Part shown: positions 2,464 through 15,609 of the stretch, piece after piece
How positions within the stretch are numbered: the first letter of the stretch is position 1
How the letters are laid out: each line of letters begins with the position of its first letter
The notes under the pieces: generated by a model
Databases searched by the model: none
What the model was told of the DNA's origin: nothing
What the model saw: only the letters and a program-made list of their open reading frames with translations
Made by a program: the position numbers and the translations under genes
NCBI GenBank assembly: GCA_947457885.1
Contig: CANGXU010000019.1
Coordinates: 1 to 34,525, forward strand
From: Betaproteobacteria bacterium
GTDB lineage: Bacteria; Pseudomonadota; Gammaproteobacteria; Burkholderiales; CAIKXV01
Direction of reading: 5' to 3'
Length of the DNA stretch: 34,525 nucleotides

Positions 2464-2931
2464 ATGTTGCAATCGGTTGACGGGTCCCCCGGAGTGAACG
2501 GACGGCGTCACTGGATGGGCCTGCTGGCTCGTGCAGCCCTGGATGATCTCGAGCAGGGCATTGCCGCCCTGGCACATGCGCCCCACGAATGGCTGCGCAG
2601 ACCCGAGACGGGTCTGTTCATGCTGCGCGGCAGGATCGGTGGCACCGGCGACAGGTTCAACCTCGGCGAGGTGACCGTCACGCGCTGTGCGCTGCGCCTC
2701 GCCACCGGCGAGACCGGGGTGGCCTATGTGCGAGGTCGCTCGCACCGGCACGCCGAACTCGCCGCGCTCGCAGATGCACTGCTGCAGTCACCCCTGCATC
2801 GGGAGGCCGTGCAGCGGACGCTGATCGCGCCGCTCGAACGTTCGACGGAAAGCGCCCGTATGCACATGCACCAGCAGGCGCAGTCGACACGCGTCGAGTT
2901 CTTCACCGTGGCGCGGGAGGCTGGCACATGA
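2464..2931 (+). CDS. phnG: PhnG, C-P lyase core complex subunit
   Basis: A 155-residue protein matching PhnG along its length: RRHWMGLLARA near residue 14, RPETGLFMLRGRIGGTGDRFNLGE in the middle, TVTRCALRL, and the end RVEFFTVAREAGT (E. coli PhnG is 150 residues). PhnG is part of the PhnG2H2I2J2 complex that moves a phosphonate onto ATP in place of adenine. The ATG at 2464 was chosen because GGAAG lies about 11 bases upstream and the length fits the family. An in-frame ATG at 2446 would add six residues without a visible ribosome-binding site. It is the first gene of phnGHIJKLM, and its stop overlaps the phnH start. Confidence 0.95.
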   Translation: MLQSVDGSPGVNGRRHWMGLLARAALDDLEQGIAALAHAPHEWLRRPETGLFMLRGRIGGTGDRFNLGEVTVTRCALRLATGETGVAYVRGRSHRHAELAALADALLQSPLHREAVQRTLIAPLERSTESARMHMHQQAQSTRVEFFTVAREAGT

Positions 2932-3539
2932 ACGTCTCGATCGACCTGTCCGGACTCGGCGCCGGATTCGCAGATGCCTCGATCGGCAGCCAGACGGTCT
3001 TCCGCCATTGCCTGGATGCCCTGTCGCATCCCGGGAAGGTGATTGCCGTGGAACCGTCCATCACGCTGTCCACACCCGCCGAGATGCATCGCCCCGCTGC
3101 GGCCATCCTGCTCGCACTGCTCGACCAGGATACGCGGCTGTGGCTTTCGCCGGCACTGCGCGGCGGCGACGCCGGGTCCTTCCTTCGCTTCCATACCGGA
3201 TGCACGCTCGTGGAGACGCCGGCATCGGCCGACTTCGGGCTTGCCGCCAGTGGCGCCGACCTGCCGCCCCTCACGGACTTCGCGGCTGGCAGCGAGTCGT
3301 ATCCGGATCGTTCGGCCACCCTGGTCGTGCAGTGCGCCGCGCTGACGGCCGGCAGCGGCTGGACCCTGACCGGCCCGGGCATCCGGGACCGTGCACGGCT
3401 GTCGGCCGAAGGCATCGGCAGCACCTTCACCAGCCAGTGGGCTGCAAACCGTGCCGGCTTCCCGTGCGGTGTCGATGTGTTCTTCGCCAGTGCCGACGCG
3501 CTGGCTGCACTGCCGCGCACGACGCGGCTGGAAGGCTGA
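2928..3539 (+). CDS. phnH: PhnH, C-P lyase core complex subunit
   Basis: A 203-residue protein of the PhnH family, shown by QTVFRHCLDALSHPGKV near residues 22-38, the central LALLDQDTRLWL strand, and the C-terminal NRAGFPCGVDVFF segment. PhnH is a PLP-transferase-like fold without the cofactor and dimerises inside the PhnGHIJ complex. The ATG (2928-2930) overlaps the phnG stop as ATGA, so translation is probably coupled. Length is close to E. coli PhnH (194). Confidence 0.94.
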   Translation: MNVSIDLSGLGAGFADASIGSQTVFRHCLDALSHPGKVIAVEPSITLSTPAEMHRPAAAILLALLDQDTRLWLSPALRGGDAGSFLRFHTGCTLVETPASADFGLAASGADLPPLTDFAAGSESYPDRSATLVVQCAALTAGSGWTLTGPGIRDRARLSAEGIGSTFTSQWAANRAGFPCGVDVFFASADALAALPRTTRLEG

Positions 3540-3540
3540 C

Positions 3541-4632
3541 GTGTACGTTGCAGTCAAGGGTGGCGAACGCGCGATCCTCAATTCCTATGCGCTGCTCGCG
3601 CAGGCGCGCCGCGGCGATGCCTCGGTGCCGGAGTTGACCCTGGATCAGATCCAGCAGCAGTTGCGGCTGTCGGTCGATCGCGTGATGTGCGAGGGGTCGG
3701 TCTACGATCCGGAACTGGCCGCGCTGGCGATCAAGCAGGCCGCGGGTGACCTGGTGGAAGCGATCTTCCTGCTCAGGGCCTATCGCGCCACCTTGCCCCG
3801 GCTCGGTTACGCGCGGCCGCTCGACACCGCCGACATGCGCCTGTGGCGAAGGATCTCGGCCACGTTCAAGGACCTGCCCGGCGGGCAGGTCCTCGGGCCC
3901 ACCTATGACTACACCCAGCGCCTGCTCGATTTCACGCTGGCGGCCTCGGGCGAGGCACAGGCAGGTCCCGTGGCTTCGCCGCAGTCGGAGGCAGGGGCGG
4001 TACCCCGCGTGGTCGACCTGCTCGGCAACGAGGGGCTCATCGAAAGCCACGAACCCTCGCCCGGCGATCCGGAGCCGGTCGACCTCACCCGCGTACCCAT
4101 CAGCTTCCCCGCAGACCGTGCCGCACGGCTGCAGAACCTCGCGCGCGGCGACGAGGGCTTCCTGCTCGCGATGGGTTACTCGACGCAGCGCGGCTATGCG
4201 AATTCGCACCCGTTTGCCGGGGAGATCCGCTTCGGGCTGGTCGACGTCGAGATCGAGCCCGAAGAACTCGGCTTCCCGGTGTCGATCGGGGAGATCGAGA
4301 TCACCGAATGCCAGATGGTCAACCAGTTCGCCGGATCGAAAACCGAGCCGCCGAAGTTCACCCGAGGCTACGGGCTCGCCTTTGGCGCCAGCGAACGCAA
4401 GGCGATGGGCATGGCGCTGGTCGACCGGGCGCTGCGTGCCACCGAACTCGGCGAGGCCGCCGATTCGCCCGCCCAGATGCAGGAGTTCGTGCTCTCCCAC
4501 ACCGACAACCTCGAGGCCTCCGGATTCGTGCAACACCTGAAGCTACCTCATTACGTCGACTTCCAGTCGGAACTCGAACTGGTCCGCAAGATGCGCGCAG
4601 CCATGCCGGAATCCGGCGCGGAGGCGGCATGA
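3541..4632 (+). CDS. phnI: PhnI, C-P lyase core complex nucleosidase subunit
   Basis: A 363-residue protein that resembles E. coli PhnI closely from its first residues (MYVAVKGGERAI). Further conserved blocks are KQAAGDLVEAIFLLRAYR, GPTYDYTQRLLDFTL, YSTQRGYANSHPFAGEIR, FTRGYGLAFGASERKAM and QHLKLPHYVDFQSELEL. With PhnGHL, PhnI displaces adenine from ATP by the phosphonate, giving ribose-1-phosphonate 5-triphosphate. The GTG start at 3541 lies one base after the phnH stop and is fixed by the invariant MYVAVKGGE N-terminus. The stop overlaps phnJ. Confidence 0.97.
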   Translation: MYVAVKGGERAILNSYALLAQARRGDASVPELTLDQIQQQLRLSVDRVMCEGSVYDPELAALAIKQAAGDLVEAIFLLRAYRATLPRLGYARPLDTADMRLWRRISATFKDLPGGQVLGPTYDYTQRLLDFTLAASGEAQAGPVASPQSEAGAVPRVVDLLGNEGLIESHEPSPGDPEPVDLTRVPISFPADRAARLQNLARGDEGFLLAMGYSTQRGYANSHPFAGEIRFGLVDVEIEPEELGFPVSIGEIEITECQMVNQFAGSKTEPPKFTRGYGLAFGASERKAMGMALVDRALRATELGEAADSPAQMQEFVLSHTDNLEASGFVQHLKLPHYVDFQSELELVRKMRAAMPESGAEAA

Positions 4633-5501
4633 AGGTCAGCGACCTGCCGCCGCCCGTCGAGCGCGATGCCAACTTCAACTTCGCCTACCTGGACGAACGC
4701 ACGAAGCGGATGATCCGCCGCGCGATCCTGAAAGCCGTGGCAATCCCGGGCTATCAGGTGCCGTTCGGTTCGCGCGAGATGCCCCTGCCCTACGGCTGGG
4801 GTACCGGCGGCATCCAGGTGACCGCATCCATCATCGGTCCGGACGATGTCCTCAAGGTGATCGACCAGGGCGCCGACGACACCGTAAACGCCGTGAACAT
4901 CCGGCGCTTCTTCCAGCGCACGACAGCGGTGGCGGTGACCTCGGTCACGACCGAGGCGACGATCATCCAGACACGGCACCGGATCCCCGAAACGCCGCTG
5001 CATGACGGACAGGTCATGGTCTACCAGGTGCCGTTGCCGGAGCCGCTGCAGAAGCTGGAGCCACGCGAGGCCGAGACCCGCGTGATGCACGGGCTGGCGG
5101 ACTACGGGCTGATGCACGTGAAGCTCTACGAGGACATCGCACGCTTCGGCCATATCGCCACCACCTACGACTATCCCGTGATGGTCGATGGTCGGTTCCT
5201 GATGGCGCCGTCGCCGATCCCGAAGTTCGACAACCCCAAGATGCACATGAACCCGGCGCTGCAACTGTTCGGGGCCGGGCGCGAGAAACGCATCTACGCG
5301 ATCCCGCCCTGGACCAGCGTCGAGAGCCTCGCGTTCGACGACCACCCGTTCGAGGTACAGCGCTGGAGCGAACCGTGTGCATTGTGTGGTGCGACCGACA
5401 GCTTCCTCGACGAAGTGATCACCGACGACCGCGGTGGGCACATGTTCGTCTGTTCCGATACCGATCATTGCAGACTCAACAGGCAGGACGATGACCGATA
5501 A
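4629..5501 (+). CDS. phnJ: PhnJ, radical-SAM C-P lyase
   Basis: A 290-residue protein, the enzyme that breaks the carbon-phosphorus bond of 5-phosphoribosyl 1-phosphonate. It can release methane from methylphosphonate. All key residues are present: Gly41 in AVAIPGYQVP corresponds to the glycyl-radical Gly32 of E. coli. Cys250, Cys253 and Cys275 form the CX2CX21C iron-sulfur motif. Cys281 corresponds to catalytic Cys272, an exact 9-residue offset due to a longer N-terminus. Other conserved blocks are PYGWGTGGIQ and YEDIARFGHIATTY. The ATG overlaps the phnI stop (ATGA). The 3' end overlaps phnK by 11 bases. Confidence 0.98.
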   Translation: MKVSDLPPPVERDANFNFAYLDERTKRMIRRAILKAVAIPGYQVPFGSREMPLPYGWGTGGIQVTASIIGPDDVLKVIDQGADDTVNAVNIRRFFQRTTAVAVTSVTTEATIIQTRHRIPETPLHDGQVMVYQVPLPEPLQKLEPREAETRVMHGLADYGLMHVKLYEDIARFGHIATTYDYPVMVDGRFLMAPSPIPKFDNPKMHMNPALQLFGAGREKRIYAIPPWTSVESLAFDDHPFEVQRWSEPCALCGATDSFLDEVITDDRGGHMFVCSDTDHCRLNRQDDDR

Positions 5502-6270
5502 CCCCCCGCTGCTTCGTGTCCAGGGCGTCACGATGCACTACGGTGCCCGCCGGGCCGTGGACGATGTCTCGTTCGACCTGTGGCCGGGCGAGGTGCTCGC
5601 GGTGGTCGGCGAGTCCGGCTCCGGCAAGACGACTCTGCTCAATGCGGTCGCGGCGCGCGTGAAGCCGGATGCCGGGCGCGTCGGGTTCATGACCCGGCAC
5701 GATGGCATGGTCGATGTGTATTCGATGTCCGAGGCCCAACGCCGCTTGCTGGCCCGCACCGACTGGGGCTACGTGCACCAGGATGCCGTGCAGGGCCTGC
5801 GCATGAACGTCTCCGCCGGAGCGAATGTCGGCGAGCGCCTGATGGCCCTGGGCGAGCGACACTACGGCCGCATCCGCACCGAGGCGGCCAACTGGCTGCA
5901 GCGGGTAGAGATGGACGCAGGACGGATCGACGATACGCCGGCCACGTTCTCCGGCGGCATGCGCCAGCGCCTGCAGATTGCACGCAACCTCGTCACGCGG
6001 CCCCGCCTGGTGTTCATGGACGAGCCCACCTCGGGCCTGGACGTGAGCGTCCAGGCCAAGCTGCTCGATCTGCTGCGCACGCTCACCCGCGGCCTGTCGC
6101 TGGCAGCGATCGTGGTCACCCACGACCTGGCCGTCGCGCGGCTGCTGGCGCACCGGATGATGGTGATGAAGGAAGGCCGCGTCGTGGAGACCGGACTGAC
6201 CGACCAGGTCCTCGACGATCCCCAGCACCCGTACACGCAGTTGCTGGTGTCCTCGGTGCTCCAGCCATGA
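5491..6270 (+). CDS. phnK: PhnK, ABC-type ATPase of the C-P lyase system
   Basis: A 259-residue ABC ATPase. It has Walker A GESGSGKTT (residues 40-48), the signature SGGMRQRLQIARNL, Walker B RLVFMDEPTSGLD and the switch His in VVTHDL. TDWGYVHQDAVQGLRMNVSAGANVGERLM is characteristic of PhnK rather than peptide importers. PhnK dimers bind the PhnGHIJ core, contacting PhnJ, and are not part of a membrane importer. It starts inside the last codons of phnJ and ends in ATGA with phnL. E. coli PhnK is 252 residues. Confidence 0.95.
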   Translation: MTDNPPLLRVQGVTMHYGARRAVDDVSFDLWPGEVLAVVGESGSGKTTLLNAVAARVKPDAGRVGFMTRHDGMVDVYSMSEAQRRLLARTDWGYVHQDAVQGLRMNVSAGANVGERLMALGERHYGRIRTEAANWLQRVEMDAGRIDDTPATFSGGMRQRLQIARNLVTRPRLVFMDEPTSGLDVSVQAKLLDLLRTLTRGLSLAAIVVTHDLAVARLLAHRMMVMKEGRVVETGLTDQVLDDPQHPYTQLLVSSVLQP

Positions 6271-7019
6271 TGCCCGGTGTCGGCGTGAAGCCCGTGCTCC
6301 GGGCCTCCGGCCTGTCCAAGCGGTTCGTCCTGCACAACCAGGGGGGCGTCGAACTGCCTGTGCTGGAAGGCGTGGCGTTCGAAGCCTTCCCCGGCGAATG
6401 CATCGCCCTGGACGGGCCGTCGGGCGCGGGCAAGAGCACGCTTCTGAAACTGATCTATGCGAACTATCGAGCGAGTACCGGGTCGGTCCACGTGCGGCAC
6501 GACGACGGGGTACAGGCCGGCGCCGAGGTCGACATGACCCGGGCCAGTGCGCAGACGCTGCTGGCCGTGCGCCGGTCCACGATCGGCTACGTCAGCCAGT
6601 TCCTGCGCACCGTCCCGCGCGTGGGTTCGCTCGACGTGGTGGCTGAACCGCTGCTGGCCGGTACCGGAGCGGACCCTGAAGCACTGCGCGACGCGCACCG
6701 GCAGGCGCAGGACCTGCTGCTGCGCCTGCGCATACCGCAGCGCCTGTGGCACGTGGCGCCCGCCACCTTCTCCGGCGGCGAGCAGCAGCGCATCAATCTC
6801 GCGCGCAGCTTCGTTCGCGACTGGCCGGTACTGCTCCTCGACGAGCCGACCGCATCGCTCGACGCCAGCAACAGCGCGACCGTCGTGGCACTGATCAACG
6901 AGGTACGAAAGCGCGGTACGACCGTGATCGGGATCTTCCACGATGCCCACATCCGCGAGCAGGTCGCCACACGCGTACTCGACATGGGCTGCTTCCAGCC
7001 GGGACCGAGGTCAAGATGA
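6267..7019 (+). CDS. phnL: PhnL, ABC-type ATPase of the C-P lyase system
   Basis: A 250-residue ABC ATPase: Walker A GPSGAGKST near residues 49-57, signature FSGGEQQRINLARSF, Walker B VLLLDEPTASLD, and switch His in GIFHDAH. YVSQFLRTVPRVGSLDVVAEPLL is typical of PhnL. It works with PhnGHI in nucleosidase transfer and binds the PhnK face of the complex. Two adjacent ATG codons open the gene; the first overlaps the phnK stop. The stop overlaps phnM as ATGA. Confidence 0.95.
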   Translation: MMPGVGVKPVLRASGLSKRFVLHNQGGVELPVLEGVAFEAFPGECIALDGPSGAGKSTLLKLIYANYRASTGSVHVRHDDGVQAGAEVDMTRASAQTLLAVRRSTIGYVSQFLRTVPRVGSLDVVAEPLLAGTGADPEALRDAHRQAQDLLLRLRIPQRLWHVAPATFSGGEQQRINLARSFVRDWPVLLLDEPTASLDASNSATVVALINEVRKRGTTVIGIFHDAHIREQVATRVLDMGCFQPGPRSR

Positions 7020-8173
7020 ACAGCGACATGGTTTTCAAGAGTGCCCGTCTGGTGCTCGGCGACGAGGTCGTGCAGGGCACGCTGGCGGTGGTCGGGGGCA
7101 GCATCGCGGCGATTGCCGCCGGCGGCACCGGTGTCTCCGGTACGCAGGACGTGGATGGTGACTTCCTGATCCCGGGCCTGGTAGAACTGCATACCGACAA
7201 CTTCGAGCGGCACCTGATGCCGCGCCCGAAGGTGCGCTGGCCGGCCCTGCCCGCGCTGTTCGCGCATGACGCGGAACTCGCTGCCTCCGGCATCACCACG
7301 GTCTACGACTCGCTGGGCGTGGGCGACATCGATGAAGAAGCGCTGCGCGGCCAGGGCTGGGGCGAAGTAATCGAGATGATCGACAGCGCCAGCGCGGCCG
7401 ACCTGCTGCGCGTAGAGCACCTGCTGCACGTACGCTGCGAGCTCGCGGCGGCCAACACCCTGTCGCTGTTCGAGCCCTTCATCGACCACCCACGCGTGGG
7501 CCTGATCTCGCTGATGGACCACACGCCCGGCCAGCGCCAGTGGGAAGACCTCGAGCAGGCACGCATCTATTACACGGGCAAGAAGGGATGGTCCGACGCC
7601 AAGTTCGATGCGCAGGTGGTCAACGCGAAGCAGGTGCAGGAGCGCTATGCGGCCCCGCACCGCAGGCACTTCGTCGAGTACGCGAAGCAGCGCGCGATCG
7701 CGCTCGCGAGCCATGACGACACGCTGCCCGAACATGTCGACGAGGCCCATGCCGACGGCGTGGCCATCTGCGAGTTCCCGACCCGCGAAGGCTCGGCCCG
7801 GGCTGCGCACGGATTCGGCATGTCGGTGCTGATGGGTGCCCCGAACGTGGTGCGTGGCGGCTCGCATTCGGGCAACGTCGCAGCGATCGAACTGGCGCGG
7901 CTGGGCCTGCTCGACATCCTGTCCTCTGACTACATCCCGGTCAGCCTGCTGATGGCCGCGTTCCGGCTGGTCGACGATGCCGGCTTCGACATTCCGCAGG
8001 CCGTGAACCTGGTGACGCGAAACCCGGCTCGGTCGGTCGCGCTCGACGATCGAGGCGAGATCGCCATCGGCAAGCGAGCCGATCTGGTACAGGTCAGACT
8101 GGTCGAAGGGCAGGCGGGCCGCATGCACCCAGTCGTGCGCGCGGTCTGGCGATCGGGCCACCGGGTGGTGTGA
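7016..8173 (+). CDS. phnM: PhnM, 5-triphosphoribosyl 1-phosphonate diphosphohydrolase
   Basis: A 385-residue amidohydrolase-superfamily protein. Metal-site motifs are in order: ELHTDNFERH (after GLV, near residue 60), ASHDDT, GGSHSGN and SSDYIPVSLL. These are the PhnM hallmarks. It removes pyrophosphate from ribose-1-phosphonate 5-triphosphate to give the substrate of PhnJ. The start overlaps the phnL stop. It is the last gene of the phnGHIJKLM operon and ends 63 bases from the convergent phosphonate monoester hydrolase gene. E. coli PhnM is 378 residues. Confidence 0.96.
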   Translation: MNSDMVFKSARLVLGDEVVQGTLAVVGGSIAAIAAGGTGVSGTQDVDGDFLIPGLVELHTDNFERHLMPRPKVRWPALPALFAHDAELAASGITTVYDSLGVGDIDEEALRGQGWGEVIEMIDSASAADLLRVEHLLHVRCELAAANTLSLFEPFIDHPRVGLISLMDHTPGQRQWEDLEQARIYYTGKKGWSDAKFDAQVVNAKQVQERYAAPHRRHFVEYAKQRAIALASHDDTLPEHVDEAHADGVAICEFPTREGSARAAHGFGMSVLMGAPNVVRGGSHSGNVAAIELARLGLLDILSSDYIPVSLLMAAFRLVDDAGFDIPQAVNLVTRNPARSVALDDRGEIAIGKRADLVQVRLVEGQAGRMHPVVRAVWRSGHRVV

Positions 8174-8236: not shown

Positions 8237-9730
8237 TCAGGTCAGCGTCCGGTCGGCGTGGCCAAGGCGCCAGTCGAGCATGCGTCTGGCCATGTCCAGC
8301 GCCACGTCGCGCGACTTGGGATCGTCGGCCCTGTTTACCAGCCAGTCCGGATCCCGGCGCAGATCGAACAGCAGCGGCGGCAGCGCGGCAAAGTGCACAT
8401 AGGCGTGGTCGGCGTCGCGGATCACCGCGAGGCTGCACTGGTGGCGTGCGATGCCGAGCAGCAGTGGTGCCTTTCCGCCGGCGAGATCGCGGAAGTCGTA
8501 CTCCCAGCGCGCTTCCCTGCGCCAGCCGGCAGGCACCGTGCCCCGCAGGAACCCGAGCAGCGAACGTCCGTCGCACTGTTCCGGGATCGTCTGGCCGAGC
8601 CAGTCGAGGATCGTCGGCAGCAGGTCGACATTTTCGCTGAAGGCCGTGACCGTGCTTCCCCGTGTCGCATCCGCTCCGGGCCGCGGATCGACCACGATGC
8701 ACGGCACATGGTACGAGGACGGGTAGTAGCCGCGCTTGCTCAGCATGTGATGATCGCCCAGTTGCTCGGCGTGATCGGAGGTCAGGATCACCAGCGTACT
8801 GCCGGATTGCCCGGTCGCGTCGAGATGGTCCAGTACGCGGCCCAGGTGGTGGTCGACCTCGGCGACCAGGCCGTGATAGGCGACGGCGATGCGGCGCAGG
8901 TCGTCGGCCGACACGTTGCAGGACAGCCCCGCCATGCCGGTCACCGACGTGCCCGCCCTGAGCGTGTCGAGCAGCAGCCGGTTCAGTGGATGGATCGCCG
9001 CTTCCTGCTCCACGCTCGCGGCTCGCACGGGCGGCGGTATCCGGCCTGGATCGATCAGCGGGTCGAAGGGGGCAGTGGCCATGAAGGGCGGATGCGGCCG
9101 GAAGAACCCGAGCTGCAGGAACCAGGGGCGCCCGGCGCGGACGCGCAGGTAGTCGAGCGCGCCATCCGCGCACCAGGCGGTGTCGGTATGTTCGGCCGCG
9201 ATCGGCGCGGCCGGGAAGCGGCTGGCGTCGTCGGCGACCGCAGCACAGCGGAACAGATCGGCGTAATCCGGGCCCACGGAATAGCCGTGCCCTGAAAGCC
9301 AGGCCAGATAGTGCCGTCGATCGCCTTCGAAGTCGCGCACCACGTCCCATCCGGCGGCGATCGAATGCGTGCGCGGTCGGGCCAGGCCCGGATGCAGCCC
9401 ACGCAGGTCCGGCAGCGTCGTGGTGTAGCCGACCAGCGCCGGTTCATAGCCGGCTTCGCGCAGGAACCAGGGCAGCGTCTTCAGGTGGGCCGCGGTCGGC
9501 GTCTCGTTGTTGACCACCCTGTGGCTCATCAGGTACTGCCCGGTCGCCATCGATGCACGGCTCGGCCCGCACGGCGCGCCCTGGGCATGGTGCCGTGCGA
9601 ACAGGATGCCGCGCCGCGCCAGCCGGTCGATGTTCGGCGTGTGCGCGCAAGAGCTTCCCATGCAGCCGAGCGCGTCTGCGCGCAACTGGTCGATGACCAC
9701 CAGCAGGACGTTCGGCTGCCCGGGATTCAC
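8237..9730 (-). CDS. Phosphonate monoester hydrolase / phosphodiesterase, formylglycine sulfatase superfamily
   Basis: A 497-residue alkaline-phosphatase-fold hydrolase. Cys54 in CGPSRAS fits the CxPxR motif whose Cys becomes formylglycine. Metal and phosphate residues appear in TSDHAEQLGDHH (Asp319, His320), Lys332, His213 in RPHPPF and GYTTT (101-105). The C-terminal YVHFAALPPLLFDL and WRLGHADRTLT strongly resemble Rhizobium and Burkholderia phosphonate monoester hydrolases rather than true sulfatases. Those enzymes cleave phosphonate monoesters and phosphodiesters. No signal peptide is seen. The GTG start is 10 bases after phnE2 with no clear ribosome-binding site, so reinitiation is likely. 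As the last gene of the phnCDDEE operon it probably frees phosphonates from imported esters. A formylglycine-generating enzyme must be encoded elsewhere. Confidence 0.88.
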   Translation of the reverse strand: MNPGQPNVLLVVIDQLRADALGCMGSSCAHTPNIDRLARRGILFARHHAQGAPCGPSRASMATGQYLMSHRVVNNETPTAAHLKTLPWFLREAGYEPALVGYTTTLPDLRGLHPGLARPRTHSIAAGWDVVRDFEGDRRHYLAWLSGHGYSVGPDYADLFRCAAVADDASRFPAAPIAAEHTDTAWCADGALDYLRVRAGRPWFLQLGFFRPHPPFMATAPFDPLIDPGRIPPPVRAASVEQEAAIHPLNRLLLDTLRAGTSVTGMAGLSCNVSADDLRRIAVAYHGLVAEVDHHLGRVLDHLDATGQSGSTLVILTSDHAEQLGDHHMLSKRGYYPSSYHVPCIVVDPRPGADATRGSTVTAFSENVDLLPTILDWLGQTIPEQCDGRSLLGFLRGTVPAGWRREARWEYDFRDLAGGKAPLLLGIARHQCSLAVIRDADHAYVHFAALPPLLFDLRRDPDWLVNRADDPKSRDVALDMARRMLDWRLGHADRTLT

Positions 9731-9740
9731 GTGCGGGCGG

Positions 9741-10613
9741 TCAATGTATGACGGTGGGGGCGTCGGTACCGCCGGTGATCTTCGCGCGCAGGCGTTTCGA
9801 GAACCAGTCGATCACGTACACCGTGCCGAGGATCATCAGCATGATGAAGCAGGCTTCCTCCCACAGCATCGTCCGGATACGGTCTGCGAGGAAGAATCCG
9901 ATCCCGCCTGCACCGACGATGCCGAGGATAGTTGCAGAGCGCGTGTTCGACTCGAAGATGTACAGGATGTTCGAAAGCATGATCGGAAGCACCTGCGGGA
10001 TCACGCCGAAACGCATGGTCTGCACCGGGCTTGCACCCGACGCGCGCAGCCCCTCGACGGGCTTGCGATCGATGTTCTCGATCGCCTCGGAGTACAACTT
10101 CGCGAGGGTCCCGGTGTCGGCGATGATGATCGCGAGGATGCCGGCCAGCGGGCCGAGGCCGACCGCACGCACGAAGATCAGCGCCCACACCAACTGGTCG
10201 ACGCCGCGCATGACGTCGCTGGAGCGCCGGAACACGAAGCGGACGATCCACCCGGGCACCATGTTACGTGCACAGGCGAATCCCAGCGGTACCGCAAGTA
10301 CCGCGGCGATGACCGTGCCGATCAGCGCCATCGCCACCGTCTGCAGCATCGCATAGGCATAGTCGAGCGCCGCGCCCTTGGCCGTCGGCGGGAACATATG
10401 GCCGACCACCTCCAGCAGCTTGCCGAAGCCCGCCCAGAGCCGGACGGGAGACATCTCGAACAGCACGATGCAGTAGACGGTGAGGCCCACGAACAGTGCG
10501 CCCGCCGCGAGGGCGGGGATCCGCTCGCGCAGGGGCTGCGAGAATGCGCCAGGGCTGATCGCGCGTGCGCGCGCGATGGCTGCCGCGTCGATGCCGGATA
10601 TGCGCAGGGTCAT
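9741..10613 (-). CDS. phnE: PhnE-type phosphonate ABC transporter permease, second copy
   Basis: A 290-residue inner-membrane permease with several hydrophobic helices. The EAA loop reads EAIENIDRKPVEGLRASGAS near residues 180-199 and GIVGAGGIGFFL follows, both typical of PhnE. The ATG at 10613 overlaps the stop of phnE1 as ATGA. A longer frame reaching 10820 is only the shadow of phnE1. Two PhnE permeases probably form a heterodimeric channel with PhnC as ATPase. It is followed after 10 bases by the phosphonate monoester hydrolase. Confidence 0.94.
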   Translation of the reverse strand: MTLRISGIDAAAIARARAISPGAFSQPLRERIPALAAGALFVGLTVYCIVLFEMSPVRLWAGFGKLLEVVGHMFPPTAKGAALDYAYAMLQTVAMALIGTVIAAVLAVPLGFACARNMVPGWIVRFVFRRSSDVMRGVDQLVWALIFVRAVGLGPLAGILAIIIADTGTLAKLYSEAIENIDRKPVEGLRASGASPVQTMRFGVIPQVLPIMLSNILYIFESNTRSATILGIVGAGGIGFFLADRIRTMLWEEACFIMLMILGTVYVIDWFSKRLRAKITGGTDAPTVIH

Positions 10614-11494
10614 GCGAAACCCTCCTTGCCGATCAGGCGGTGCCGCACCCGCTCGCACACCATGTCGATCAGGATCACGGTGCAGACCATGAGGATGATC
10701 AGCGCGCTGATGTCTTCGTAGTAGAGGCGGCTGATGGCAGTGTAGAACTCCTGGCCGATGCCACCGGCACCGACGAAACCGATGATGGAGGCCGAGCGCA
10801 CGTTGATCTCGAAGCGCCACAGGCTGAACGACGTGAAGTTCGGCAACACCTGCGGCAGCACCGCGAAGCGGATGGTCTGCACCCAGTTCGCGCCGGTCGC
10901 GCGCAAGCCGTCCACTGGCTTCATGTCGATGTTCTCCACGGCTTCCGCGAACAACTTGCCGCTACCGCCCATGGAATGGATGGCAATGGCCAGGATGCCT
11001 GCCAGCGGCCCGATGCCGAAGGCGAACACGAAGACCAGCGCGAACACCAGCTCCGGGATGGTCCGGGCCACCTCGAACACGCGCCGGGCGATCCAGTAGC
11101 TGGTGCCGCCCCGCGACAGGTTGCGGGCCGCGTGAAAGCACAGGGCAAGGGCGCCCAGCGTGCCCAGCAACGTCGCGATGTACGCGATCAGGATGGTCTC
11201 CCAGAGCAGCATGAGCCACTTGGGAAGGCCATAGAACCATTCGGACAGATCGCCCCAGAGGTTGTCGAGGGTCAGTACCGGAAGGGTCTTGGCGACATAC
11301 TCGTGGATGCGCGGCAACCCCTGGAAAAGCTTCACCAGGTTGAACTCGCCGACCCATGCCGATGCGGCGAACACGGCGGCGAACAGCAGCCCGTAGCCGA
11401 GCGTGAGCCAGCGCTTGCGCACCTGCAACGCTCGCCAGGACGTCTCGAACGTGCGGACCGCTTCCAGGCCGGTAGCCGTGCTGGACATGGTCAT
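10610..11494 (-). CDS. phnE: PhnE-type phosphonate ABC transporter permease, first copy
   Basis: A 294-residue permease. A first membrane helix at about residues 30-48 is followed by a periplasmic loop (LPVLTLDNLWGDL), more helices, the EAA loop EAVENIDMKPVDGLRATGAN, and GFVGAGGIGQEFYTAI. The longer N-terminal part before the core resembles the phosphonate/phosphite permease type. The ATG at 11494 overlaps the stop of phnD2 (ATGA), and an in-frame ATG two codons later is equally possible. It pairs with phnE2. Confidence 0.94.
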   Translation of the reverse strand: MTMSSTATGLEAVRTFETSWRALQVRKRWLTLGYGLLFAAVFAASAWVGEFNLVKLFQGLPRIHEYVAKTLPVLTLDNLWGDLSEWFYGLPKWLMLLWETILIAYIATLLGTLGALALCFHAARNLSRGGTSYWIARRVFEVARTIPELVFALVFVFAFGIGPLAGILAIAIHSMGGSGKLFAEAVENIDMKPVDGLRATGANWVQTIRFAVLPQVLPNFTSFSLWRFEINVRSASIIGFVGAGGIGQEFYTAISRLYYEDISALIILMVCTVILIDMVCERVRHRLIGKEGFA

Positions 11495-12396
11495 CCCTTC
11501 CGCCGCATGCGGCGTTGCTCCTGCACGGCATCGAGCAGGGGCTGGTACATGTCATGGGTCACCGGGACATAGCCCTGGGTCTTGCCGCGCGCGACGATCT
11601 CGGCCATCCGGGGGTCGATCGAGTACAGGTCGACGAACAGCTTCTGGATGTCGCGCTTCATGTCCGCCGGCAGGTCCTTGCGGACGGTGACCGGCGACCC
11701 GGGGATCAAGGGCGAACGCCAGACTACGCGCAGCCGGCTGGTATCGAGTACCCCGCGCTGGGCCATCATGTGCAGCACGCCGCGTGCGAGCGGATCGCGC
11801 GCGCCGAACACGAATGCGCTGTCGAACTGGCCGCCGACCACGCCCAGCGCACTCTGTTCATGGCCACCGGAGAACACCGTGCGCCCGAAATGCTTCGTCG
11901 CGTCGATGCCGGACGCGCGCAGCGCGACCAGCGGAATCAGGTAGCCCGAGGCCGAGTTCGGATCCGCCCAGGCGAGGCTGCGTCCCTTCAGGTCCTCGAT
12001 CTTCTGGAAGGGCGAGTCCGACCGCACGATCAGGTGCGAGTGGTAACCGATATCGCCATCGACCTCTTTCGCCGCCGCCAGCGGCTCCACGCCGCCGTCG
12101 GAGTCGATCCATGCGGCTGCGTATGCGGCAGGGCCGAGATTGGCGAACTGGATCTGCCCGGAAGTGAGTGCCTGGATCGTGCCCGAGTAGCTCGATGCGA
12201 TGTGGATGCGCAGCTCGACCCCGAACCGATCCTTGAAGACCTTGGCGAAGTCCTTGAACCGCGCTTCGGTGGCACCCTGGCTCTCGGAGCTGACCGCGCT
12301 CATGGAGACCACCGGATACTTCGCCCGCCAGTCCTGCGCCGAGGCGGCCGCGGCGAGGAGGGCGAGCAGCGGCGCTGCGATCCAGGCGAGCCTCAC
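11491..12396 (-). CDS. phnD: PhnD-type phosphonate-binding protein, second copy
   Basis: A 301-residue periplasmic receptor. A GTG start is chosen: it gives a clean signal peptide (RLAWIAAPLLALLAAAASA, cleaved before QDW) and lies one base after the phnD1 stop, whereas the longer frame to 12492 overlaps phnD1. The body has ALTSGQIQFANLG, SDSPFQKIEDLKGRSLAWADPNSASGYLIPL and SGGHEQSALGVVGGQFDSAFV, the PhnD fold of the phosphate/phosphonate receptor family. It is a clear paralogue of phnD1, but differs around FGARDPLARGV where phnD1 has WSSKGHNAGQI, so the ligand may differ. Confidence 0.93.
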   Translation of the reverse strand: MRLAWIAAPLLALLAAAASAQDWRAKYPVVSMSAVSSESQGATEARFKDFAKVFKDRFGVELRIHIASSYSGTIQALTSGQIQFANLGPAAYAAAWIDSDGGVEPLAAAKEVDGDIGYHSHLIVRSDSPFQKIEDLKGRSLAWADPNSASGYLIPLVALRASGIDATKHFGRTVFSGGHEQSALGVVGGQFDSAFVFGARDPLARGVLHMMAQRGVLDTSRLRVVWRSPLIPGSPVTVRKDLPADMKRDIQKLFVDLYSIDPRMAEIVARGKTQGYVPVTHDMYQPLLDAVQEQRRMRRKG

Positions 12397-12397
12397 G

Positions 12398-13315
12398 TCA
12401 CCGCTTCCGGTTCTTGCGCACTTCGAGGGCAGCATCGAGCACCGGCTTGTACATCTCGTGCGTAGCCGGGACGAAACCGGCGGTCTTGCCACGGGCGGCC
12501 AGTTCCGCCATCTGCGGATGCGTCTTGGCCAGGTCGGTCCAGAACGCGAGCAGGTCGCGGCGCATGTCGGCCGGGAGATCCTTGCGCACGACCACCAGCG
12601 GATTCGGGATCAGCGGCGACTCCCAGATGACCCGGAACTGATCCATCTTGAGCACGCCGCGGTCGACCATCGCGCGAATCTGGCCGGCGTTGTGGCCCTT
12701 CGACGACCAGGTGAAACCGGAATCGAACTGACCGTTGATGACGCCGAGCACGCTCTGCTCGTGGCCACCCGAGAACAGCGTCTTGCCGAAGAACTTGTCG
12801 GGCTCGATACCGATGGCGCGCAGCGAAACGAGCGGAATCAGGAAGCCGGATGTGGAGTTGGGATCGGCCCAGGCGAGCGACCGGCCCTTGAGATCCTCGA
12901 CGCGCTTGAACGGGCTGTCCGACTTCACGATCAGGATCGAGTGGTAGCCGAGCGAACCGTCGACTTCCTGGTTGGTCACCAGCGGCTCGACCTGGCCGTT
13001 GGAGTCGATCCAGGCCGAGGCGTAGGCGCTGGCACCCATCTGCGCCATCTGGATCTGCCCCGACGTCAGCGCCTGCACGGTTCCGGCGTAGTCGGTGGCG
13101 GTGAAGATACGCAGTTCGACGCCCATCTTCTCCCGGAACACATCGGCCAACTGCTTGTATCGGGCGAGCGTCGCCGACTGGTTCTCGGCGCTCACCGAAC
13201 TGAACCCGACCACCGGAAACTTCTTCTTCCACTCCTGCGCGTGGCTGGCGGCGGACGAAAGTGCCACGCCGATGCCGAGCAGGCCTGCAGCCAGAAGGCG
13301 ATTGCTTGCGAACAT
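12398..13315 (-). CDS. phnD: PhnD-type phosphonate-binding protein, first copy
   Basis: A 305-residue periplasmic receptor with a signal peptide (FASNRLLAAGLLGIGVALSS, likely cleaved after SHA). GGAGAAG lies about nine bases before the ATG at 13315, which decides the start; the frame open to 13522 has no such site. Conserved PhnD blocks are ALTSGQIQMAQMG, DLKGRSLAWADPNSTSGFLIPL and FSGGHEQSVLGVINGQFDSG. It follows phnC by 40 bases and is followed one base later by phnD2. Best read as the main phosphonate receptor of the importer. Confidence 0.94.
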   Translation of the reverse strand: MFASNRLLAAGLLGIGVALSSAASHAQEWKKKFPVVGFSSVSAENQSATLARYKQLADVFREKMGVELRIFTATDYAGTVQALTSGQIQMAQMGASAYASAWIDSNGQVEPLVTNQEVDGSLGYHSILIVKSDSPFKRVEDLKGRSLAWADPNSTSGFLIPLVSLRAIGIEPDKFFGKTLFSGGHEQSVLGVINGQFDSGFTWSSKGHNAGQIRAMVDRGVLKMDQFRVIWESPLIPNPLVVVRKDLPADMRRDLLAFWTDLAKTHPQMAELAARGKTAGFVPATHEMYKPVLDAALEVRKNRKR

Positions 13316-13355: not shown

Positions 13356-14174
13356 TCAGGCGGCTGCGGCCTGGGCCACCGTTGGCGGCTCGAATCCGGC
13401 CGCGGTGGAGGTCGCCGATTCGTCGAACCCGGCCGCGTCGCCTTCGACGCCATAAATGCGGCGTACCGTTTCGGTGGTGAGTTCGGCCGGCCCGCCGTCG
13501 AACAGCACTTCACCGCTGGCAATGCCGACGATCCGGTCGCAGTACTGGCGAGCCGTGTCGAGGGTGTGCAGGTTGCAGATCACCGTAATGCCATCGTCAC
13601 GGTTGATCGAGCGCAGCGCCTGCATCACCTGGATGGCGCTGCGCGGATCGAGCGAGGCGATCGGCTCGTCGGCCAGCAGGATGTCCGGGTCCTGCATCAT
13701 CGCGCGCGCAATCGCCACGCGCTGCTGCTGGCCACCGGACAAGGTTTCAGCGCGCTGCAGTGCCAGGTGCGCGCAGTCGAGCCGCTCCAGGGCCAGAACG
13801 GCCATCGCCCGCTCCGCCTCGGTGAAGCGCTTGACCAGAGAAGGCAGGGTGCCATGCCGGGATACGCAACCCATCAGCACGTTGGTGATCACGTCGAGGC
13901 GCGGCACGAGGTTGAACTGCTGGAAGATCATCGCGCAGCGCGCACGCCACTGCAGCAGGGCCCTGCCCCTGAGCGCGCTGACCGCCTCGCCCTTCCAGGT
14001 GATCGTGCCCGAGGTGGGTTCAGCGAGGCGATTGATCATGCGCAGCAGCGTCGACTTGCCGGCACCGGACCGACCGATGATCCCGACCATCTGGCCCTGC
14101 GGAATCTCGAGGGTCACGGACTTCAACGCGTGAACCTTCCCGAACGCCTTGCCAATCTGCTGGATCTCGAGCAT
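13356..14174 (-). CDS. phnC: PhnC, phosphonate ABC transporter ATPase
   Basis: A 272-residue ABC ATPase: Walker [10 protein letters not shown] (residues 34-42), [21 protein letters not shown], signature [15 protein letters not shown], Walker [14 protein letters not shown], and switch His in CNLHTLDTA. The QFNLV..L.VLTNVL-like segment is typical of PhnC. The start at 14174 is preferred because GGAG lies about 8 bases upstream and family proteins begin this way; a frame from 14210 would run into the promoter. An Ala-rich C-terminal tail of about 25 residues is extra. First gene of phnCDDEE-hydrolase, directly behind a strong PhoB box. Confidence 0.95.
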
Positions 14175-14200
14175 CGCCTGTCTCCGTCGATAAGCGGCGA

Positions 14201-14245
14201 AAGGTAGCAACCGCTCGTGACAGGACTGGGACAGTTATGTGTCAG
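14201..14245 (-). promoter_or_regulatory. phnCp: PhoB box (three heptamers) and -10 element for the phnC operon
   Basis: Read on the minus strand there are three direct heptamers, each 4 bases apart: CTGACAC (14245-14239), CTGTCCC (14234-14228) and CTGTCAC (14223-14217). This is the 11-base period of PhoB binding sites, consensus CTGTCAT. Ten bases after the last heptamer is TACCTT (14206-14201), the expected place for a -10 in a PhoB-activated promoter. The predicted transcript starts about 20 bases before the phnC ribosome-binding site. This makes phosphate-starvation control of the importer and the ester hydrolase very likely. Confidence 0.82.
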
Positions 14246-14269: not shown

Positions 14270-15466
14270 TCAGCGCGGACTCACCCTGGGCATCAGCAGC
14301 AGGGCTCCCAGGGCCGCCGCACCCAGCACGGCGGACAGCCAGAGTGCGCCGCCCCCCCAGCGGTCGATCGCCGCACCGAACGCGAGCGGGGCAATCGCCT
14401 GCGACAGACGTGCCGGCAGGGTCAGCCAGCCCTGGCGCAGGCCATAGCCCTGGGGGCCGAACAGCACCAGCGGCAGTGTTCCCTTGGCGATGGTGAGGAT
14501 GCCGTTGCCGGCGCCGTGAAGCAGCACGAATGCCGGGGCAAGCGCGGTGCCCCCGGCCGCGAGCAGCACGACGCCCAGGGGATGGCCGAGCGCGGCCAGC
14601 CGCGCCGAGAGGAGCGGATGCACATGGCGCAGGAAACCGAACTCGAGCAGCCGCGCGGCGACCTGGGCCGGCCCGACGATCGCGCCCAGTGCCACGGCCA
14701 TCGCCAGCGAGGCGCCTGCCTCCTGCAGCAGGCGCGGCAGGTGGGCGGCCATCGCAGTGCTGATGAACCAGGTGACGGCGAACACGAAGGCCAGCAGGAT
14801 CGCAGCCAGCGCCGCCCCCGGCACGGGCGCCGACTCGGCGCCCGGCTCGGACTGCGCCAGTGCATCGCGGTCGGCACGGCGGGCGGCACCGGGAGCACGG
14901 GTGGCGCGGGGCAGCGACAGGTTCAGTGGCAGGCCCACGATCAGGTGCAACAGTGCCCATCCGACGCAGGCGCCGCGCCAGCCCAGGTGCGTCTCCATCA
15001 CGGCCGACAGTGGCCAGCCGACGGTGCTGGCGAAACCGGCGATCAGCGTGATGCCGGTGATCGTCGCCCGCGCATCGCTGCCCCGCAGGCGGACCAGGGT
15101 CGAGAAGGCGGCCTCGTACAGCCCGGAGCCCATCGCCAGCCCGATCACCGCCCAGCCGATGAACAGCCCGACCGTGTCCTGGGACAGCGCCAGCATCACG
15201 AGGCCGCCAGCGAACGCCAGGCTGGCACCGGCCAGGACGGGCCGCCCGCCCGCGCTGTCGATCAGCCGGCCGGCGAGCGGACCGACGAACGCAGATACCA
15301 GCAGCGCAAACGAGAAGGCAGCGAACACGACGATCGGACTGACGCCAAGGTCGGCCGCCATCGGCCCGGCCAGCATCGCAGGCAGATAGTAGGAAGAAGC
15401 CCAGGCGAGCGTCTGCGCGGTGCCCAGGATCGCGACCAGTCGCGCATCGCCTGCCTTGTCTTTCAT
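14270..15466 (-). CDS. MFS transporter
   Basis: A 398-residue integral membrane protein with about 12 hydrophobic helices in two halves of six, separated by a polar loop near residues 190-215 (ATRAPGAARRADRDALAQ). The GRLIDSAGGRP motif after helix 2 is the major-facilitator loop 2-3 signature, and it is repeated in degenerate form (GAAIDRWGGG) in the second half. It is divergent from an operon for a PhnZ-type oxygenase and a phosphonoacetaldehyde dehydrogenase, 143 bases away, and may import their substrate. It ends 95 bases before phnC, with the PhoB promoter in between. The substrate is not predictable. Confidence 0.88.
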   Translation of the reverse strand: MKDKAGDARLVAILGTAQTLAWASSYYLPAMLAGPMAADLGVSPIVVFAAFSFALLVSAFVGPLAGRLIDSAGGRPVLAGASLAFAGGLVMLALSQDTVGLFIGWAVIGLAMGSGLYEAAFSTLVRLRGSDARATITGITLIAGFASTVGWPLSAVMETHLGWRGACVGWALLHLIVGLPLNLSLPRATRAPGAARRADRDALAQSEPGAESAPVPGAALAAILLAFVFAVTWFISTAMAAHLPRLLQEAGASLAMAVALGAIVGPAQVAARLLEFGFLRHVHPLLSARLAALGHPLGVVLLAAGGTALAPAFVLLHGAGNGILTIAKGTLPLVLFGPQGYGLRQGWLTLPARLSQAIAPLAFGAAIDRWGGGALWLSAVLGAAALGALLLMPRVSPR

Positions 15467-15526
15467 GCCGGTAGCGTCGGCGGCGCGACGCGGCGGGTCA
15501 AGCGTCGTGCAGGGGCTTTCACCAAA

Positions 15527-15544
15527 AGTTCATCCGGCTGTCAT
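15527..15544 (+). promoter_or_regulatory. Low-confidence PhoB half-site before the HD oxygenase gene
   Basis: CTGTCAT (15538-15544) is an exact PhoB heptamer. Four bases before it, AGTTCAT (15527-15533) keeps only the TCAT end. No convincing -10 element follows at the expected distance. It could let PhoB act on the HD-phnY-SDR operon, but one exact heptamer can occur by chance. Confidence 0.25.
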
Positions 15545-15565: not shown

Positions 15566-15609
15566 TACGCTCTGCGACGTCGTCGACCAGACCGGAAGCC
15601 GCAACGCCC

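Follow-up and report, generated by a model that had tools for sequence, protein, structure and literature searches.

A probable PhoB-activated promoter in front of the phosphonate transporter genes of a betaproteobacterial phn cluster

The repeats that stand in front of phnC in this betaproteobacterial genome raise two questions: whether they form a promoter that is activated by PhoB, and whether the transporter unit behind them, rather than the C-P lyase unit, carries the main Pho signal of the cluster. The window, i.e. the whole stretch of 34,525 nucleotides that was analysed (contig CANGXU010000019.1), was compared with the rest of the genome and with genomes of the same genus and order. 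With a probability of roughly 0.9, the phnC-phnD1-phnD2-phnE1-phnE2-pehA unit has a PhoB-activated sigma-70 promoter at positions 14201-14245 of the minus strand. This is considered very likely owing to the rarity of the site, its matrix ranks, its conservation, the presence of PhoB in the genome and the occurrence of Pho-like sites before phnC elsewhere in the order; the binding, the activation and the start site would very likely follow the E. coli model. Such a promoter would tie both phosphonate import and the C-P lyase route, by which methane can be released from methylphosphonate, to phosphate limitation in an uncultured lineage from fresh water.

The transporter unit lies on the minus strand. 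It opens with phnC, the phosphonate ABC transporter ATPase (13356-14174; TIGR02315, 323 bits against a cut-off of 266), followed by the phosphonate-binding protein phnD1 (12398-13315; TIGR03431, above cut-off) and a second phosphonate-binding protein, phnD2 (11491-12390), whose start codon is uncertain and which scored 250 bits with TIGR03431 (cut-off 261) and above the cut-off of TIGR01098. The permeases phnE1 (10610-11494) and phnE2 (9741-10613) both exceed the TIGR01097 cut-off, and a pehA-like phosphoric/sulfuric ester hydrolase (8237-9730; best family NF045661, 548 bits, below the cut-off of 900) is the last gene of the unit. Consecutive genes are separated by at most ∼40 bases or overlap by 4 bases. 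Given the fact that all six genes share a strand with such short gaps, the importer and the ester hydrolase are very probably under phosphate starvation control together, as the initial annotation had proposed. The lyase unit phnGHIJKLM occupies the opposite strand (2464-8173), with phnN/DUF1045 beyond. The products of phnG, H, K, L, M and N were all over their family cut-offs, while phnI and phnJ were assigned from open frames that lie where these genes would be expected and that align with the clusters of the congeners. The window therefore holds phnGHIJKLM together with phnCDE, the gene set that defines a C-P lyase (phn) cluster. The proteins scanned in the window included no phnF regulator.

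In E. coli, import and lyase genes form one operon (phnCDEFGHIJKLMNOP), whereas here they form separate, convergent units. This arrangement resembles other split phn clusters of the Burkholderiales, such as the phnCDE and phnN-DUF1045-phnMFGHIJKLM units of Achromobacter (PMC11203657). The split clusters have Pho-like sites before phnC and often before phnG; the present transporter unit differs from theirs by its two phnD genes and the pehA-like hydrolase. The tandem phnD genes (11491-13315, minus strand) are ∼60% identical to each other and both are kept in the congeners; they possibly provide one transporter with two substrate ranges. Upstream of phnC, on the same strand, lies an MFS gene (14270-15466) that is kept between phnHD and phnC in five clusters. 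Of the named families, the arsenite exporter ArsK comes nearest to it, with a score far under the cut-off (222 of 400 bits).

Read from 14245 to 14201 on the minus strand, the site is CTGACAC-ATAA-CTGTCCC-AGTC-CTGTCAC-GAGCGGTTGC-TACCTT, just 5' of the phnC start codon (14174). The three heptamers (14239-14245, 14228-14234 and 14217-14223) were identified from the sequence and the heptamer score, the second and third also by a genome pattern search, and they follow one another at steps of exactly 11 bases. The -10 element TACCTT (14201-14206) begins exactly ten bases past the third heptamer, and a likely ribosome-binding site, GGAG (14182-14185), was read from the sequence 7 nt 5' of the phnC ATG. 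The coordinates and steps given for the heptamers and the -10 in the initial annotation were right. A Pho box consists of at least two direct repeats of seven bases near CTGTCAY with an 11-base period (PMC4415409); the region 14217-14245 holds three, with 1, 1 and 0 mismatches, and the single mismatch in each of the first two heptamers counts against the promoter. No sigma-70 -35/-10 pair was found in the window between 8000 and 16200, as would be expected of a promoter that depends on an activator. A -10 at exactly ten bases without a good -35 is the form of a PhoB-activated sigma-70 promoter, and the initial claim of a classical PhoB promoter layout is supported. In E. coli, most PhoB-bound sites are inert, though these are mainly intragenic (PMC10294691).

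The summed consensus score of the three heptamers, taken at three 11-base steps, was 23.5, which makes this the best three-heptamer site in the window. The best scores in 40 order-2 Markov copies of the window had a mean of 12.2, a standard deviation of 2.0 and a maximum of 16.5. When the 4.03-Mb genome was searched with CTGTCAY-N4-CTGTCAY-N4-CTGTCAY, allowing up to three mismatches, the phnC site was the single match, and the reversed control gave 0. Two position matrices were built, one from seven E. coli Pho promoter sites with sequences from NC_000913.3, and one from pstS, phoB and phoU of the host's genus, without any phn site. In the matrix scoring that had been suggested as a check, each of them ranked the phnC site first among 68,984 positions of the window. 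The full-promoter pattern CNGTMAY-N4-CNGTCAY-N10-TANNNT, with at most one mismatch, matched four times in the whole genome (phoB, pstS, phnC and gapdh-arsJ), and the control gave none. This pattern was written after the phnC, pstS and phoB sites had been seen, so that recovering those three is no independent evidence; the informative part is that there are few other matches and that the sole unforeseen one is also a phosphate-related operon.

The layout matches that of known Pho promoters. The E. coli phoA, pstS, phoB and ugpB boxes share the 11-base heptamer steps and the spacer of exactly 10 bases to the -10 hexamer, and the pstS, phoB and phoU promoters of the host's own genome and its congeners follow the same order of heptamer-4-heptamer-10-TAnnnT. 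The phnC site differs from the E. coli boxes by having three heptamers in a row and more G+C in the spacers, and from pstS, phoB and phoU of its own genome in that none of these has three heptamers that stay within three mismatches of the consensus. As at the E. coli phnC promoter, a PhoB site just 5' of phnC drives, or here would drive, the phosphonate uptake genes; the E. coli site is a poor match (ATTAACCAAATCGTCACA, PMC10294691), whereas the present one is near consensus. Pho boxes before phnC are already known from E. coli and, by a citation given in PMC10294691, from Caulobacter. The site is therefore of an ordinary kind, and is a new and unusually clean member of it.

The genome encodes the regulator itself. 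PhoB was identified with TIGR02154 (363 bits, over the NCBI cut-off of 296) and is 61% identical to E. coli PhoB. The stretch RTVDVHIRRLRKALEP, recognition helix included, is identical in the two proteins, and the DNA-reading helix is thus conserved. In the PDB, the host protein has close relatives in the effector-domain structures of E. coli PhoB, which include 1gxp. The open frame immediately 3' of phoB (L040 5173-6498) was judged by eye to encode a histidine kinase at the position where PhoR would be expected. Several OmpR-family regulators are encoded in the genome, and members of this family bind direct repeats of about 11 bases, so that another of them, for instance a CreB-like protein, might own the phnC site. 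The TTCAC-N6-TTCAT core of the box before phnHD (see below) may resemble a cre tag. Such ownership is very unlikely: the phnC site is like the phoB and pstS promoters of the host in both sequence and geometry, and the three next-best PhoB-like proteins resemble OmpR, the PmrA/QseB type and a heavy-metal regulator. CreB itself is an unlikely owner, as the CreB cut-off is not reached by any protein of the genome and the best CreB match is PhoB.

Conservation within the genus also speaks for the promoter. A cluster with phnC is present in five genomes of the genus, host included, and the site is kept in the four congeneric genomes. Two of these copies are near-identical; the other two belong to genomes with a PhnC of ∼84% identity and diverged flanks. 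The diverged pair retains ACATAACTGTC, a GTRTMAC-like third heptamer and the TA of the -10, and likewise TGAAACATAACTGTCTC..GTGTAACGG and TAG[TC]CT, with the spacing unchanged, and is further from the consensus (heptamers TGAAACA and GTGTAAC). If the site were a chance match, phnC could be transcribed by read-through from the MFS gene, whose stop codon precedes phnC by only ∼95 bases; nothing resembling a terminator was found between the two genes, which counts for read-through. We consider this highly improbable, because the site is rare in the genome, is kept while the rest of the gap between the two genes diverges and changes length, and recurs before phnC in other genera with different synteny.

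To assess that recurrence, twenty more regions were collected with phnG as the anchor. Nineteen belong to other genera of the order, and the remaining one comes from a sixth congener in which phnC is off the contig. For the other genera, the 180 bases that precede phnC (accepted at 40% identity or more) were searched for their best site, which was then compared with windows of the same region. All 11 regions that hold phnC showed a significant Pho-like site before it (p 0.005-0.024 each), mostly 67-82 bases upstream. The combined p-value, 2e-12, is too optimistic, since the genera are related and the individual values are not independent. These regions replaced a first order-wide sample of PhnC-like ATPases at ∼45% identity, which was mostly boxless and many of whose members may serve other transporters. 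The site is thus kept in relatives, across five congeneric clusters and 11/11 phnC regions of other genera, which suggests that phnC is as a rule controlled by PhoB in this betaproteobacterial order. This apparent generality is mildly new, given that such control was concluded not to be widely conserved around E. coli (PMC10294691).

On the E. coli model, PhoR would phosphorylate PhoB when phosphate is scarce, and phosphorylated PhoB would occupy the 11-base repeats in a head-to-tail array. The pair of heptamers nearest the -10 (14217-14234) would take the place of the missing -35 element, and the distal one (14239-14245) probably strengthens the binding by accommodating one more PhoB subunit. 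PhoB would then recruit RNA polymerase to TACCTT, with a predicted transcription start near 14194 and a leader of ∼20 bases. The transcript would cover the whole unit from phnC to pehA, the extent of the operon being predicted as well. The C-P lyase unit, from phnG onward, would very likely be governed by the same regulator through a weaker site of its own.

That weaker PhoB-like site lies at 2361-2405 on the plus strand, before the phnG ATG at 2464, and reads GCGTAAC-CGGA-CGGTCAC-GAGG-CAGCAAT-N10-TAGCCT. It was identified by genus conservation, matrix score and recurrence in the order, and its -10 stands at the same 10-base spacing as that of the phnC site. The spacing is the same in five congeneric clusters, where the changes keep the GTCA and AAY cores. 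The initial annotation had called the phnC box far clearer than anything before phnG, and by score this is true: 17.9 bits vs 13.1 with the genus matrix and 12.3 vs 3.2 with the E. coli matrix. The phnG site is weaker, not absent. It ranked second in the window with the genus matrix, whereas the E. coli matrix placed it twelfth. Its score is equalled by a few background positions, and it is not outstanding by itself in the whole genome, so the case for it is one of place and conservation. Across the order, sites before phnG were found at p<0.05 in 13 of the 20 regions, often in the form GTCAY-GAAA-nnTTCAY. An apparent site facing DUF1045 (2483, minus strand) was not counted, as it lies within the first codons of phnG and its conservation may be coding.

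The further claim, which assigns the main Pho signal to the transporter unit instead of the lyase unit, is not supported. It would have only or mainly the transporter unit answer to PhoB, with the lyase unit controlled by substrate or constitutive. The phnC site does outscore the phnG site with every matrix, and in Variovorax xiamenensis grown on methylphosphonate vs phosphate, phnC-E were reported as highly upregulated and phnG-M as upregulated too (PMC12226003), a result that would be compatible with a gradient or with an effect of the substrate. Such a division is nevertheless improbable, as the site before phnG shows every element of the geometry, is kept within the genus and turns up again across the order. 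Box clarity is moreover no measure of output: the E. coli phnC site is weak by matrix, yet a ChIP-seq study lists its operon as strongly PhoB-dependent (PMC10294691). Control of both units by PhoB therefore remains the preferred reading.

A third box stands before the phnHD/aldehyde dehydrogenase operon, where the triple heptamer CTTTCAC-CAAA-AGTTCAT-CCGG-CTGTCAT (15516-15544, plus strand; heptamer score and conservation) is present in all five congeners. A possible -10, TACGCT (15566-15571, plus strand), lies 21 rather than 10 bases past it. These boxes did not recur in other genera among the phnG-anchored regions of the order. It is conceivable, though doubtful, that graded boxes stage the three phn units, with uptake induced early and C-P cleavage following only when phosphate starvation deepens; the gradation would run from the strong triple box at canonical spacing (phnC) to the weaker box at canonical spacing (phnG) and the box whose -10 lies an additional 11-base turn away (phnHD). 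In two congeners the pehA-like gene lies within the phnHD operon, vs the end of the transporter operon here, and has thus moved between two units that each start with a Pho-like site.

The unforeseen match of the genome-wide pattern search is a Pho-type promoter, CCGTCATGAAACCGTCAC-N10-TACATT (contig C87:13363-13396, minus strand), which begins 70 bases before the ATG of the ArsJ-associated gapdh, followed by arsJ, and is present in four congeneric genomes. Its sequence suggests that arsenate detoxification may be induced by phosphate starvation, since high-affinity phosphate uptake would also admit arsenate. A literature search did not find ArsJ, GAPDH, PhoB and arsenate treated together, and this promoter may be worth more than the phnC site itself. 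The phoU gene does not adjoin pstSCAB in the congeneric genomes, and it has its own conserved Pho-type promoter, CCGCCAT-N4-GTGTCAC-N10-TAnnCT (L064 345-378 and congeners).
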